Shown: one piece after another, positions 14,783-29,951 of the stretch
Layout of the letters: each line of letters begins with the position of its first letter
Position numbering within the stretch: the first letter of the stretch is position 1
Assembly (NCBI GenBank): GCA_016868665.1
Contig: VGGK01000022.1
Coordinates: forward strand, 1 to 34,683
Direction: 5' to 3'
DNA from: Chlorobiota bacterium
Lineage (GTDB): Bacteria > Bacteroidota > Chlorobiia > Chlorobiales > Chlorobiaceae
Length of the DNA stretch: 34,683 nt
Translations under genes and position numbers: made by a program
The notes under the pieces: model-generated
Databases searched by the model: none
Told to the model about the DNA's origin: nothing
The model's input: the letters and a program-made list of their open reading frames with translations, nothing else

Positions 14783-15952
14783 ATGAAACCCGCAAGAGAA
14801 CACAGTCTTCTGCTTGGTCAGTCGAGCGTCATGATCCGCCTCAGGGAACTTGCGCTGCAGGTCGCCGAAACGGATATCACCGTCCTGATCACCGGCGAAA
14901 CAGGGTCCGGAAAAGAGGTGCTCGCGCGATTCATCCACGAACACAGCCGTCGATCAGCAAACAACTTCATACCGGTCAATTGCGGAGCAATCCCATCGGG
15001 ACTGCTTGAATCCGAACTGTTCGGACATGAAAAAGGCTCGTTCACCGGTGCGGTGCAGGCCAGAAAAGGATATTTCGAAAGCGCCGACAGAGGAACCATC
15101 TTTCTTGACGAAATCGGCGAAATGCCGCCCGAAACGCAGGTAAAGTTTCTCCGCGTGCTTGAAACCGGAGAATTCCAGAGAGTCGGCGCATCCCAAACCA
15201 TCTATTCCGATGCGCGGGTCATAGCGGCAACCAACCGGAATCTCTATCAGGAAGTTGCCGAAAACAGATTCCGGGAAGATCTTTACTACCGGCTCAGAAG
15301 CGTCGAACTCCAGCTTCCGCCTCTGCGGGAACGAGGTCGCGACATCCTTGTGCTGACCGAGCACTTCGTCCGCGAAGCCGAACTGCGCCACGGCATCTCC
15401 TTCGAAGGATTCGACGCCGAAGCCGTCGATATGCTCCTTCGTTATCCATGGCCGGGAAACATCAGGGAACTCCGAAATCTCATCGACTCGCTGCTCGTGC
15501 TCGAAAAAGGACGGAAAATAACATCCGGGATCCTCGAAAAACATCTCATTCAGCGAAGCAGGCACAAAAGTCTGGTGCACGACCCGTCGCGGTCCGAAAA
15601 GCAGGAGCTGAACCTGATATACAGCAGCATCATTCAGCTTCGCCAGGAGATGAGCGAGATCCGTCACCTCCTGCAGCTGCTCCTCCACAACCGCCCGCAG
15701 CCTTCGCCACTCCTTCTCCCCGGCCCCGCGAGCCAGACCGAAGCACAAACCCGGGAACCGCCGGCAGTTCCCGCAGAAACCCGAACGGCAGAAAAGCAAG
15801 CGGCCCTGCCATCTCTCGGGGATATCGAAAAACAAACCATTATCGATACCCTGAAAGCAAGCGGCAACAACAAACGACTGGCCGCAAAAACACTGGGAAT
15901 CACCGAACGCACCCTTTACCGTAAAATCAAATCCTACGGTATCGGCAATTGA
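14783..15952 (+). CDS. Orphan sigma-54-dependent activator (AAA+ plus Fis-type HTH, no sensor domain)
   Basis: 389 residues. The AAA+ domain begins almost at the N-terminus: Walker A GETGSGKE (38-45), sigma-54-contact loop GSFTGA (85-90, the common Ser variant of GAFTGA), Walker [11 protein letters not shown] (104-113), and the R-finger region with [15 protein letters not shown] predicted coiled coil ([20 protein letters not shown] onward) and a Pro-rich linker come next. A Fis-type HTH ends the protein ([20 protein letters not shown], then ERTLYRKI). No receiver, GAF or PAS domain is present, so activity must be set by expression level or a partner protein, as in PspF-like activators. It is the only sigma-54 activator in this window and therefore a candidate for the RNA-gene promoters at 27.8-28.8 kb. 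Confidence 0.93.
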
Positions 15953-15980: not shown

Positions 15981-17624
15981 TTACCCCCGTTTTCTGCCGA
16001 TAAAGGCTACACCCGCTAACGCAACGGACACCATCGCGGCTGCTCGCGGCAGCAGATCCGGAAAACGGGTATACAAAGTCAGATCGGTGTACAGCGGCAC
16101 ATCGGAGGTAAGCGTCCGCTCTTCCCACCACGGAATCTCTGCGTAGACTCTACCGTACCGGTCGATAAACCCGGTAATGCCTGTATTGGCGCAACGCGCC
16201 ATAGCCCTGCGATTCTCGATGCAGCGAAGTTTTGCAATAGCGACATGCTGGTAAGGACCGTATGAAGTCGAATACCAGCCGTCATTGGTCACCAGCGTCA
16301 GGAACTGGGCTCCATTTCGGACAAACCCCGTCACCAGACCGGGAAAAATCGATTCGTAGCAGATGATATTGGCGGTTTTCACCCTGCCATTCCTCCTCGA
16401 ATCAAACTCCATCGCCGGCGTATCCGAACCCCGTCCCCAGCTGCTGATGCCGGCCAGAGATACCGAGAACCGGTCAAGCCACGGAAAATACTCCACATAG
16501 GGAACCCTTTCCGCAAAAGGAACCAGTCTGTTCTTGCGATACACCTGCGGATTTCCGGTATCGGCATTGAGCAGCATGGACGCATTGAAAGTTTCGTAAT
16601 GCCGGCCACTCGCACTGTCAAACCTGACATCTCCGCTCCTTGCCCGTTCGGAATCCGGATGGTAATAGACAATATCCGAGAACCCGCTGAGCAGTGAAAC
16701 CCGCCACTCCCTGAGCGCAAAACGAAGCGACTGCAGATAACCTGAATTCACGGTATCGAGAATAAAAAACGGAATAGCTGTTTCCGGCCAGATAACCAGA
16801 TCGGGATCATCCCTGAAAACGGCTCGACCCGTCAGACGGTAATAGCTGTCCATCATATCCTGACCGGTATAAAGCTGCCACTTGCTGAAAGGATCGATAT
16901 TCGGCTGAACAAGCGTCACCCTGACTGTTCCCGAACGGGAATCATGCGATGCCTCCCCGCTGACAACCTTCCATCCATAAAAAAACGGCACGACGATCAG
17001 CAGCAGCAGAATTGAAAGCAACCGGCGCTGCCGGGGAACCGCTTTTCTCTCCAGCCAGAACAGCGCAGCAAGCACATTGAACAATAACAGCCAGAACGAT
17101 ATGCCCCATACGCCGGTAATATCGGCATACTGTATCATGCCCGTAAGGTTTGCCTGGGAATTACCCAGGGTAAGCCATCCGAGGGAAAGATCCTGTTCCA
17201 TGTACGCCCATTCCCAGGCGGTCCAGAAAAAAGGAAGCGAAAAAAGTGCGAAACGGTAACCCCGCCTCCGCTTAACCAGCAGAAACGGCAGAAAAGGAGC
17301 CGTCAGAAAAAAAGACTGGGCGATGACGGTCAGAATCCCTCCAGGCAACGTGGCAAGGGAGACCCACCACAGGGAAACGACGGAAAAAACCAGCATCGAC
17401 AACCAGATCTTGCGGTAAGCCTGCCCGAACGGCTCATCCCGCTTCAGGGAAAGCAGGAGCGGGACAAGACCTATCCAGGCCAGAATCTCAAGCCTGACAA
17501 AAGGATAGGATGGAAAGGAAATACCAAGCAGGATACCGCTCAGGATCGGCATACCGATCGAAGAAAAAGAAGCTGCGTTAAATTTCCCGAAATTGGCAGG
17601 CATGGAATTTTCAACGGTTTTCAT
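15981..17624 (-). CDS. lnt: Apolipoprotein N-acyltransferase
   Basis: About 547 residues. The N-terminal half is a run of hydrophobic segments (about 6-7). It is followed by a nitrilase-type periplasmic domain with the catalytic Glu in VIWPETAIPFF, Lys in VYRKNRLVPFAERVPYVEYF and Cys in NIICYESIFPG. A final membrane segment ends in arginine/lysine-rich GRKRG. It N-acylates the lipoprotein Cys as the last step of lipoprotein maturation. ATGs at 17624 and 17654 are both possible; neither has a clear Shine-Dalgarno. Its 3' end faces the sigma-54 activator gene with only 28 bp between stops. Confidence 0.92.
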   Translation of the reverse strand: MKTVENSMPANFGKFNAASFSSIGMPILSGILLGISFPSYPFVRLEILAWIGLVPLLLSLKRDEPFGQAYRKIWLSMLVFSVVSLWWVSLATLPGGILTVIAQSFFLTAPFLPFLLVKRRRGYRFALFSLPFFWTAWEWAYMEQDLSLGWLTLGNSQANLTGMIQYADITGVWGISFWLLLFNVLAALFWLERKAVPRQRRLLSILLLLIVVPFFYGWKVVSGEASHDSRSGTVRVTLVQPNIDPFSKWQLYTGQDMMDSYYRLTGRAVFRDDPDLVIWPETAIPFFILDTVNSGYLQSLRFALREWRVSLLSGFSDIVYYHPDSERARSGDVRFDSASGRHYETFNASMLLNADTGNPQVYRKNRLVPFAERVPYVEYFPWLDRFSVSLAGISSWGRGSDTPAMEFDSRRNGRVKTANIICYESIFPGLVTGFVRNGAQFLTLVTNDGWYSTSYGPYQHVAIAKLRCIENRRAMARCANTGITGFIDRYGRVYAEIPWWEERTLTSDVPLYTDLTLYTRFPDLLPRAAAMVSVALAGVAFIGRKRG

Positions 17625-17733
17625 AAAAAGGGAAATACCGCTGTCAGTATACATTATATCAATGCAATGACGAAGAGCTGCGAGATATATTTTCCTTTAA
17701 TTATTGATTTTTATTCTTTAAATTTATTACAAG

Positions 17734-17747
17734 CTGTTATTTAACAG
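17734..17747. promoter_or_regulatory. Small inverted repeat in the fmoA leader
   Basis: CTGTTA-TT-TAACAG is a perfect 6-bp inverted repeat about 67-80 bp before the fmoA ATG, in a very AT-rich region. It could be an operator or an RNA hairpin. Convincing -35/-10 boxes were not assigned. Confidence 0.3.
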
Positions 17748-17813
17748 GAATAAACTCCGTGTACTTCCTGAAAATATCCAATTTCAACGCCACCAGAAAA
17801 AGGAGAAATCACT

Positions 17814-26766: not shown

Positions 26767-27705
<939 letters not shown>

Positions 27706-27730: not shown

Positions 27731-27820
27731 AAAAAGAAAAAGCGGCTTTACAGCCGCTTTTTCCTTGACCAGGTGTCCCCCATTACACCCGATCATCCTC
27801 ACGGGCGTGAGGAGTTTCAT
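27731..27820 (-). ncRNA. Small RNA copy A (two stem-loops + terminator; Chlorobi-1-like)
   Basis: On the minus strand a predicted RNA of about 90 nt starts near 27820. Stem 1 (27797-27812) is CCTCAC-GCCC-GTGAGG. Stem 2 (27767-27794) has 10 pairs, two of them G-U, around an AAUGGGGG loop. An intrinsic terminator (27738-27761) follows with a U-rich tail. The start is inferred as 12 nt after the -12 element. The two-hairpin-plus-terminator layout agrees with my recollection of the Chlorobi-1 RNA motif. Function is unknown; an antisense or protein-binding regulatory RNA is plausible. Confidence 0.82.
27738..27761. terminator. Bidirectional terminator shared by mdh and small-RNA gene A
   Basis: A 10-bp perfect stem (AAAAGCGGCT / AGCCGCTTTT) with a 4-nt loop. 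On the plus strand it ends mdh transcripts with a short T run; on the minus strand it is followed by TTTTCTTTTT. Confidence 0.88.
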
Positions 27821-27830
27821 CAGTATCAAT

Positions 27831-27847
27831 GCAATCTTCGTGCCAAC
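27831..27847 (-). promoter_or_regulatory. Sigma-54 promoter of small RNA A
   Basis: The minus strand reads GTTGGCACGAAGATTGC: GG at -24 (27843-27844) and GC at -12 (27831-27832) with exactly 10 bp between, matching YTGGCACG-N4-TTGC. The start is expected near 27819-27820. Confidence 0.88.
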
Positions 27848-28133
27848 ACATGCACAACAGCAGTCGATCTCATGATAAGCGAACCTCTCTAATAAGTCTG
27901 ATGAGCGAACAACGAAGCAAGCTCCATAAAGGAGCGAGAGTGTAAAGGCACGGATGCAGCGGAGATACCGGAGTCTTCACCGCAGTACAGGAGGATTTCG
28001 AGCACCGACGAAACCGAGCAATCCGGTCGCGCAATAACTTTTCACAGGTTCCCATAAACAGTATAGACGCTCAGTTCCGGGGCCGACCAGGCAATACGAC
28101 GATCCCGCAACAACACGATAACCGATACATAAC

Positions 28134-28168
28134 GTCTCGTTTTCAATCCTACCGTCTCAGTATGAGAC
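28134..28168 (-). promoter_or_regulatory. Putative activator sites (UAS) of unit A
   Basis: A perfect inverted repeat GTCTCA-N3-TGAGAC (28154-28168) plus a half-site GTCTCG (28134-28139) 20 bp away. It lies about 310 bp upstream of promoter A. The inverted-repeat form suits a Fis-type activator dimer. Confidence 0.6.
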
Positions 28169-28241
28169 ATAATCAGAATATACCTCCCCCTCGATCCGAT
28201 AGGCCTCATGACTTTTTCTCCATCAACATCGAAGTACGCAC

Positions 28242-28328
28242 AAAAAAAAGCGGCTTTACAGCCGCTTTTTCCTTGATCAGGTGTCCCCCATTACACCTGA
28301 TCGTCCTCACTGGCGTGAGGAATTTCAT
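28242..28328 (-). ncRNA. Small RNA copy B (two stem-loops + terminator; Chlorobi-1-like)
   Basis: About 87 nt on the minus strand. Stem 1 is at 28305-28320 (loop GCCA instead of GCCC). Stem 2 is at 28275-28302 with a perfect 10-bp helix and the same AAUGGGGG loop. The terminator stem (28245-28270, 11 bp) is followed by eight U residues. It has the best promoter, stem and enhancer spacing of the three and is probably the reference copy. Confidence 0.85.
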
Positions 28329-28338
28329 CAATGTATCT

Positions 28339-28355
28339 GCAAACTTCGTGCCAAC
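28339..28355 (-). promoter_or_regulatory. Sigma-54 promoter of small RNA B
   Basis: The minus strand reads GTTGGCACGAAGTTTGC, with GG (28351-28352) and GC (28339-28340) 10 bp apart. This is a consensus -24/-12 promoter; the start is expected near 28327-28328. Confidence 0.9.
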
Positions 28356-28507
28356 AAATGCACAACAACAGTCAAACTCACCGACCAACCCAAGCAATCT
28401 GGTCGCGCAATAACTTTTCAGAGGTTCCCATAAACAATATTGACGCCTTGTCCCGGCCGACTGCGCAACACGACGATCCCGCAACAACATGACAACTGAT
28501 ACACAAC

Positions 28508-28543
28508 GTCTCGTTTTCAATCCTGTCCGTCTCAATATGAGAC
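28508..28543 (-). promoter_or_regulatory. Putative activator sites (UAS) of unit B
   Basis: A perfect inverted repeat GTCTCA-N3-TGAGAC (28529-28543) and a half-site GTCTCG (28508-28513) 21 bp away, two helical turns. It lies about 156-190 bp upstream of promoter B, in the usual range for sigma-54 enhancers. Confidence 0.65.
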
Positions 28544-28617
28544 ACAATCAGAATATACATCCCCCCTCGATCCGATCGGCCTCATGACTTTTTTTCCATC
28601 AACATCGAAGTATGCAC

Positions 28618-28707
28618 AAAAAAAAAAGCGGCTTTAAAGCCGCTTTTTTTCCTGATCAAGTGTCCCCCATTACACCTGATCATCCTCACGGGCGTGAGGA
28701 GTTTCAC
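28618..28707 (-). ncRNA. Small RNA copy C (two stem-loops + terminator; Chlorobi-1-like)
   Basis: About 90 nt on the minus strand. Stem 1 is at 28684-28699, identical to copy A. Stem 2 is at 28654-28681 with one G-U pair and the same AAUGGGGG loop. The terminator is a perfect 30-nt palindrome (28621-28650) followed by U residues. Surrounding DNA differs from A and B, so conservation of the RNA implies selection. Confidence 0.82.
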
Positions 28708-28717
28708 GAATACATAT

Positions 28718-28733
28718 ACAAACTTCGTGCCAG
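28718..28733 (-). promoter_or_regulatory. Sigma-54-like promoter of small RNA C, weakened -12
   Basis: The minus strand reads CTGGCACGAAGTTTGT: the -24 half is consensus (GG at 28730-28731), but the -12 GC is GT (28718-28719). Spacing is unchanged. It probably works less well than A and B. Confidence 0.7.
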
Positions 28734-28820
28734 AATATCGAAACAAACCGACAAGTCATTTATAAATGAAGAGTTAAAAAATAATAACACAAAAACACCG
28801 AACAATTGCGCAGCACATAG

Positions 28821-28880
28821 TGTCTCACTTTATGAATAATAATGTCTCATAACAGGACATATCGTAACAATATGAGACAC
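28821..28880 (-). promoter_or_regulatory. Putative activator sites (UAS) of unit C
   Basis: Two TGTCTCA half-sites (28821-28827, 28843-28849) and a degenerate inverted repeat GTAACA-N3-TGAGAC (28864-28878) stand 21-22 bp apart. They start about 90 bp upstream of promoter C and end just beyond the aguA stop codon. Confidence 0.6.
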
Positions 28881-28898: not shown

Positions 28899-29951
28899 TC
28901 AGTAAATCTCCAACAACGGCTCTTCATGGGTAATGCAATGGATGGCCCCGAGCCCCCATATGAGATCGGAACAATCAATACCGACAACCCTTCTGTCCGG
29001 AAAGCAATCCTGCAGCACCTGAAGGGCAATACGGTCGCGCCGGGAACGATAGGTCGGCACCAGAACAACCGACGTTGCTATATAGAAATTTGCATAGCTT
29101 GCCGGCAGGCGTTCTCCTTCATAATAAACTGGTTCCGGCATAGGTAATTTCACGATATCGAGAGGACGGCCGTCAAGGCCGGCAGAGGTTTGCAGTCGCT
29201 CATAATTATCGAGAAGGGGCCCATAATTCTCGTCCCCGGCATCATCTTCCACTGCGGTCACTATAGTGGTTTCATTCACAAAACGCGACATATCGTCAAC
29301 ATGTCCATCGGTATCGTCTCCTGCAATACCGTCACCAAGCCAGATGACCTTCTCGGCGCCGAGATAGTTCCGAAGCCGGCCCTCGATCTCTTCGCAATTC
29401 ATCGAGGGATTCCTGTTTGGATTGAGAAGACATGCCTCGGTCGTCAGCAGCAGCCCTTTGCCGTTCACGTCTATCGCGCCGCCTTCGAGCACCATGCCTG
29501 TCGATACAACAGGCACATTCTGGATCGCTCCTACCCTTTCCGGTACGGCATTGTCATCATCATACGGTTCGTATTTGCCTCCCCACGCATTGTACTCCCA
29601 ATTGACGATCACCTTCTCCGTCCGTTCGCCCCGACTCCGGAAAACATAGTTAGGGCCGTGATCGCGGCACCAGGCATCGTTGGTGGGGATCAGGTGAAAA
29701 AACACGCGCTCCATAACCGCATCGACATGCCTGTCTGCCTGGATAAGCCTGCGGGCCTCCTCCCGCATCTTTTCGTCGAGCACATTGATATGCACCTCCT
29801 CCGAAGTGCTCAGCCATGCGGCAATCTCGGCAAAAACCGCCGGAACCGGCTCGAATCTGCCCGGCCACGATTCAAGCTTGTGAGGCCATGAAAGCCATGT
29901 CGCCTTGTGAGGCGCCCATTCGGGCGGCATGATGTATCGGTAATCTGTCAT
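28899..29951 (-). CDS. aguA: Agmatine deiminase
   Basis: 350 residues, full length. Family landmarks are MPPEWAPHKATWLSWPH at the N-terminus, the substrate motif PTNDAWCRDHGPNYVFR, GDDTDGHVDD in the middle, and the nucleophile Cys at about residue 339 in GLGAIHCITHEEP. It converts agmatine to N-carbamoylputrescine and ammonia. aguB, for the next step, lies two genes upstream on the same strand. The start ATG overlaps the stop of the M48 protease gene (ATGA), so translation is likely coupled. The activator sites of small-RNA unit C start about 20 bp after its stop. Confidence 0.96.
   Translation of the reverse strand: MTDYRYIMPPEWAPHKATWLSWPHKLESWPGRFEPVPAVFAEIAAWLSTSEEVHINVLDEKMREEARRLIQADRHVDAVMERVFFHLIPTNDAWCRDHGPNYVFRSRGERTEKVIVNWEYNAWGGKYEPYDDDNAVPERVGAIQNVPVVSTGMVLEGGAIDVNGKGLLLTTEACLLNPNRNPSMNCEEIEGRLRNYLGAEKVIWLGDGIAGDDTDGHVDDMSRFVNETTIVTAVEDDAGDENYGPLLDNYERLQTSAGLDGRPLDIVKLPMPEPVYYEGERLPASYANFYIATSVVLVPTYRSRRDRIALQVLQDCFPDRRVVGIDCSDLIWGLGAIHCITHEEPLLEIY

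Follow-up and report, generated by a model that had tools for sequence, protein, structure and literature searches.

Tandem Chlorobi-1 RNA genes with conserved sigma-54-type promoters, upstream half-site arrays and a candidate two-component activator in Chlorobiaceae

The window, i.e. the whole 34.7-kb stretch of DNA that was analysed, contains three minus-strand Chlorobi-1 RNA genes at positions 27752-28705, between an aguA-like and an mdh-like gene (Table 1). In a covariance-model search, the three copies matched RF01696 over the full model length (1-67), all of them above its gathering threshold of 50 bits. The family that the initial annotation had suggested without a database search is thus the right one. 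Each copy also folds as had been described, into two hairpins and a U-tailed terminator hairpin, with energies of -44 to -48 kcal/mol (z -7.2 to -8.0) and none of 200 shuffled sequences as stable. The window harbours a member of a second Chlorobi RNA family, an Lnt RNA (RF01711, 77.5 bits; 17711-17770, minus strand), just upstream of the gene at 15981-17654.

The three units had been reported to share the same order of parts, and the RNA, -24/-12 element, candidate activator sites and terminator were indeed found in each of them. Nevertheless, part of this likeness is recent copying. The two proximal copies, B and C, arose by tandem duplication of a ~376-bp unit, with blocks 86-95% identical, and because of this recent origin their resemblance within the window is weak, non-independent evidence. 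The spacing also differs, as copy C carries ~132 extra bases that place its palindromic site ~310 bp upstream, versus ~180 bp otherwise.

Table 1. Features of the Chlorobi-1 locus (window positions) and the candidate activator gene.
Feature	Position	Strand	Details
Chlorobi-1 RNA, distal copy A	28638..28705	-	RF01696, 79.9 bits; fold z -7.2
Chlorobi-1 RNA, middle copy B	28260..28326	-	RF01696, 82.7 bits; fold z -8.0
Chlorobi-1 RNA, proximal copy C	27752..27818	-	RF01696, 76.7 bits; fold z -7.2
Predicted transcript, copy A	~28706 to ~28618	-	
Predicted transcript, copy B	~28327 to ~28240	-	
Predicted transcript, copy C	~27819 to ~27731	-	
Intrinsic terminator, copy A	28618..28652	-	sequence and fold
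Intrinsic terminator, copy B	28241..28270	-	sequence and fold
Intrinsic terminator, copy C	27731..27763	-	sequence and fold
-24/-12 element, copy A	28717..28732	-	TGGCACGAAGTTTGTA; one mismatch (TTGTA); predicted +1 28706, model start 28705
-24/-12 element, copy B	28338..28353	-	TGGCACGAAGTTTGCA; exact TGGCACG-N4-TTGCA; predicted +1 28327, model start 28326
-24/-12 element, copy C	27830..27845	-	TGGCACGAAGATTGCA; exact TGGCACG-N4-TTGCA; predicted +1 27819, model start 27818
Three TGTCTCA/TGAGACA half-sites upstream of copy A	28821..28879	-	28821-28827, 28843-28849, 28873-28879
Candidate activator site, copy B	28507..28544	-	TGTCTCATATTGAGACG (28528-28544) and GAGACG (28507-28512); one mismatch to palindrome
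Candidate activator site, copy C	28132..28169	-	TGTCTCATACTGAGACG (28153-28169) and GAGACG (28132-28137)
~132 extra bp in copy C, not in copy B, separating activator site from promoter	about 27873..28002	-	register shift 508 vs 376
aguA-like gene, conserved upstream neighbour	28899..29951	-	agmatine deiminase, read from sequence
mdh-like gene, conserved downstream neighbour, convergent with the array	26773..27705	+	malate dehydrogenase, read from sequence
EBP4, candidate activator (same genome)	G000:C1:18214-19662		receiver, AAA+ with GSFTGA sigma-54 loop, HTH

Upstream of each RNA gene lies a -24/-12 element of the sigma-54 type. When 12 nt are counted on from the -12 base, the predicted start of all three copies precedes the Rfam model by one base. 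By number, the sigma-54-like sites of the window do not significantly exceed chance (6 with up to two mismatches, versus 2.8 expected), and therefore the case for these promoters is made by exact matches at a fixed spacing and by conservation in other genomes. We searched 296 genomes of the phylum and collected 90 Chlorobi-1 matches in 41 of them. With up to five matches per genome, mostly in tandem beside mdh and aguA, the system is multi-copy, as had been proposed. The upstream DNA of all 90 matches was taken and its last 60 nt scored for -24/-12 elements. A TGGCAYG-N4-TTGY element with a score of at least 12.2 of 14.7, a value reached by 0.4% of shuffled upstream sequences, is located just upstream of 54 copies in 30 Chlorobiaceae genomes. 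Such elements are rare in windows further upstream, where they plausibly represent the promoter of a preceding tandem copy. Taking one copy per genome, none of the 29 genomes departs from the GG or from the G of TTG, and the information content is 1.2-2.5 bits per column over TGGCACG and TTG, versus a mean of 0.16 in the flanks. The distance from the -12 element to the model start is 10-11 nt in 31 copies and 17-22 nt in the other 23, which suggests that some of the RNAs have a slightly longer 5' end. The features that define a TGGCAYR-N4-TTGCW promoter, namely the GG and GC dinucleotides, a fixed distance from the start and conservation in homologues, are thus present. The genome also encodes sigma-54 itself (rpoN, G000:C32:17587-18063; E 1.3e-52). 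RpoN is found in 69 of 71 Chlorobiaceae genomes, and since it is near-universal it does not explain the patchy occurrence of the RNA.

The candidate activator sites are organized around TGTCTCA/TGAGACA half-sites. All five exact TGTCTCA heptamers of the window fall within 28163-28879, and the two best matches to the palindrome TGTCTCANNNTGAGACA in the whole genome are the sites of copies B and C. Over all homologous loci, 51 GTCTCA/TGAGAC half-sites were counted 90-195 bp upstream of the promoter, versus 3.6 +/- 1.9 expected from random strings with the same dinucleotide transitions. Forty-eight of a total of 65 lie 100-175 bp upstream, and they often recur at about 19-22 bp. The enhancer-like sites noted at this locus are therefore a clustered feature of its homologues, at the looping distance that characterizes promoters activated by enhancer-binding proteins (EBPs).

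The sigma-54 promoters are predicted from sequence, and several distant homologues have boxes of another type. A TAnnTTTG box, which we take to resemble the housekeeping promoters of Bacteroidota, is found 9-25 nt upstream of four distant copies (G005, G125, G137 and G237), as well as of a divergent copy in the genome of the window (C1:44186-44250, 32.9 bits). One might thus regard the RNAs as ordinary sigma-70/sigma-A transcripts, with a -24/-12 likeness arising by chance or from a constraint unrelated to sigma-54. We consider this most improbable, given that both hexamers are conserved position by position across 29 genomes between neutral flanks, and that a separate cluster of half-sites is present upstream. 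No sigma-54 element was found at Chlorobi-1-like RNAs of other families of the order, nor at additional types within Chlorobiaceae. The absence of the element from distant copies, some of which have the TAnnTTTG box, suggests that sigma-54 control was acquired within Chlorobiaceae. The copy of G252 (L023 1501-1566) has lost its -24/-12 element and carries a TATATTTG box 38 nt upstream, which suggests a promoter switch.

Other forms of the RNA were also detected. A 3'UTR-type variant directly follows the stop codon of a gene for an acidic-tailed protein and is devoid of its own sigma-54 promoter (L036, L037 and L031). In genus g2, a second RNA type, containing GAUCCGUGGGGGAACGUC, is present as a single copy with no sigma-54 element (L043-L046, L048 and L051), and some g2 copies that follow another copy without a promoter of their own are probably co-transcribed with it. 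Two weak matches (G000:C52:9078 and G295:C82:3306) were regarded as false; they resemble related protein-coding sequence. The initial annotation had made its proposal dependent on conservation of the -24/-12 element at homologous loci. Such conservation was found for the 54 copies in 30 genomes, and it does not extend to the distant families, the 3'UTR type or the second g2 type.

The genome of the window encodes five full EBPs, which raises the question of the identity of the activator. We profiled three of them, the orphan EBP of the window (14783-15952), the PrsR-like EBP5 and EBP4, across 71 Chlorobiaceae genomes. EBP4 occurs in 34 of these, including all 30 with an observed sigma-54-type copy and G221, whose Chlorobi-1 copy has its upstream region cut off by a contig end. 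Outside these 31 genomes, EBP4 is present in three of 40. These three related genomes (G169, G205 and G225) have no Chlorobi-1 RNA, and therefore EBP4 has another role too or is decaying there. Two RNA-bearing genomes, G102, with a 3'UTR-type copy only, and G252, with its degenerate promoter, are devoid of EBP4; G106 has neither the RNA nor EBP4. Cultured strains with the system include C. phaeovibrioides BrKhr17 and Chlorobium sp. N1. The co-occurrence of EBP4 with the sigma-54-type RNA gives, with kinship left uncorrected, a Fisher p of about 1e-16. In a tree built from the window EBP, six changes of the RNA and five of EBP4 are seen. In independent pairs, the two change together in four of four cases and never in opposite directions (p 0.125), which is thin phylogenetically independent support for EBP4 because four pairs cannot reach significance. 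G181, which is nested among genomes with neither component, carries both and shares its EBP4 type and a shortened UGUUGGGGGACA loop with G010 and G040, a pattern that fits joint transfer or joint retention of the RNA and EBP4. The two EBP4 types differ in their recognition helix, although the half-sites look alike. In most carrier genomes, the EBP4 gene comes just after a csmH-like chlorosome envelope gene (L126 3497-5666). In G010 and G040 its neighbour is instead a gene resembling a hybrid histidine kinase, as judged from a receiver-domain match, whose product is a candidate kinase for EBP4 in these genomes.

Of the other two proteins, the window EBP has an uninformative profile: it is found in 69 of 71 genomes, 38 of which have no sigma-54-type Chlorobi-1. 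The profile of EBP5, which occurs in 13 of 71 genomes and is missing from 20 of the 31 with the RNA, does not match that of the RNA. Activation by one of these or by yet another EBP, with EBP4 co-occurring through shared ancestry alone, would be compatible with the small number of independent events (four pairs) and with the linkage of the window EBP to the array, about 13 kb away. The same genome also has exopolysaccharide-type clusters with two sigma-54-like sites (L131, C31:7722-7837, and L132, C31:18437-18564), each preceded at about 85-96 bp by a near relative of the TGTCTCA site, TCTCTCA-N3-TGAGAGA; these sites possibly belong to EBP5. Nevertheless, the distributions given above speak against both proteins, and a GAF-type EBP and a NifA-like EBP are encoded beside a TolC-type operon and nifH, respectively. 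We thus regard activation by an EBP other than EBP4 as unlikely.

Two further sigma-54-like sites were noted in this genome. An exact consensus (TGGCACGGCTATTGCA) precedes a chaperone-usher-pilus-like operon (L129 7900-8607), with TCTCA and TGACACA about 100 bp upstream. The gene of a giant LapA-like adhesin (C26; L128 ~1700-2160) has a TGGCATG-N4-TTGT element together with TGAGAC-like half-sites in an array. We considered this adhesin as a co-regulated gene, but the array and CTGGCATGATTCTTGTT are found here and no such promoter is present at its relatives in G295, G040, G010 and G241. It is a weak lead.

How the RNA might act can be approached from its conservation. The UGGGGGACA loop is invariant in 24 diverse copies, whereas the stems covary: 18 of 27 base pairs are changed on both sides, versus a mean of 6.8 in shuffled alignments. 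In the two conserved hairpins, six of eight and six of ten pairs are changed on both sides, and none of 500 shuffles reaches the totals. Such invariance of a loop whose stem covaries points to recognition by a partner in trans. The constant place of the genes between aguA and mdh in many genomes could instead indicate a cis function, as a leader, attenuator or spacer for one of these neighbours. There is very little room for this possibility, as every copy is closed by a terminator and is oriented away from aguA, mdh is convergent on the opposite strand, and some genomes have copies elsewhere (G028:C11 and G189:C16).

For action in trans, our first choice, which we put forward tentatively and at somewhat below even odds, is base pairing of the loop with target mRNAs by way of a short C-rich seed. 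A search of seven genomes for the exact 10-nt loop complement gave one match outside the RNA genes here and one in G075, none of them shared, and the duplexes predicted near gene starts in the loci examined were energetically no better than those of shuffled sequences; no conserved mRNA target emerged from these two approaches. The second choice, which we find rather doubtful, is that the same sigma-54-driven RNAs use the invariant AAUGGGGG-A loop to sequester a protein, as CsrB/RsmZ or CrcZ do. The invariance of the loop on covarying stems, the tandem multiplication of the copies, as in titrating RNAs, and the lack of a conserved mRNA complement in the searches above would all suit such a role. 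CsrA-binding RNAs usually carry several GGA-like loops, however, whereas each Chlorobi-1 RNA has one.

Taking these data together, we favour sigma-54- and EBP4-dependent control of a trans-acting small RNA, with a probability of roughly 0.7 on the basis of the sequence comparisons. Sigma-54 RNA polymerase would transcribe each of the three tandem genes from a separate -24/-12 promoter. A two-component EBP, probably EBP4 switched on through phosphorylation by a kinase, would bind the arrays of TGTCTCA-N3-TGAGACA half-sites, which lie 100-190 bp upstream or, for copy C, at about 310 bp, and would activate transcription by DNA looping. Phosphorylated EBP4 would thereby cause several near-identical ~90-nt RNAs to be made at once, with the tandem copies raising the RNA dose, and each RNA would display the invariant AAUGGGGG loop on its covarying stem, most likely for pairing with mRNAs through the seed.

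This layout is reminiscent of two known systems. In Vibrio, Qrr1-5 are several near-identical small RNAs, each with a sigma-54 promoter, that are activated by the response-regulator EBP LuxO from 100-200 bp (PMC2680268). The present system has the same elements, including sites at that distance, with a candidate in place of an established EBP. The loops are different and no sequence homology is claimed, the genes here form one tandem array, and EBP4 scores 334.5 bits against the LuxO NCBIfam cut-off of 800 and is thus not a LuxO. In enterobacteria, the GlmY and GlmZ genes are under sigma-54 and the two-component EBP GlrR, with the site TGTC-N10-GACA (PMC4987338). The TGTC-N9-GACA found here resembles it with a spacer one base different, and the combination of sigma-54-type small RNA genes with a two-component EBP, a candidate in our case, is the same. 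The RNA structure and gene context differ, and EBP4 scores 329.1 against the GlrR cut-off of 763, so that it does not qualify as GlrR either. The Chlorobi-1 system is thus analogous to Qrr/LuxO and GlmY/GlrR, not homologous; it would work like them and is not a member of either.

The RNA itself is the already known Chlorobi-1 (RF01696), with matching hairpins, terminator, sequence and covariation. It was listed as a candidate RNA of Chlorobi, with no regulator in the passages of the main text consulted (Weinberg et al. 2010, PMC2864571). The sigma-54 promoter, the activator arrays and the candidate activator are added here. In the open literature, our search retrieved no account of a Chlorobi-1 promoter or regulator, nor of sigma-54 regulation in green sulfur bacteria.

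We can envisage, as a possibility that we hold with less than even confidence, a patchily inherited module composed of one response-regulator EBP and an expandable tandem array of sigma-54-driven Chlorobi-1 genes. It may have originated in Chlorobiaceae through the passage of an ancestral RNA from a housekeeping promoter to sigma-54 control, and may since have been gained and lost as a unit; the csmH neighbour hints at chlorosome or light control. For Chlorobi-1, an orphan RNA family since 2010, a sigma-54-type promoter is now seen to be conserved, the putative activator sites are defined and one activator stands out as the best candidate. If the proposed control is correct, another unrelated lineage, besides Vibrio with Qrr and enterobacteria with GlmY/Z, would have placed multi-copy small RNAs under a sigma-54 two-component switch, and the case would bear on why such wiring recurs.
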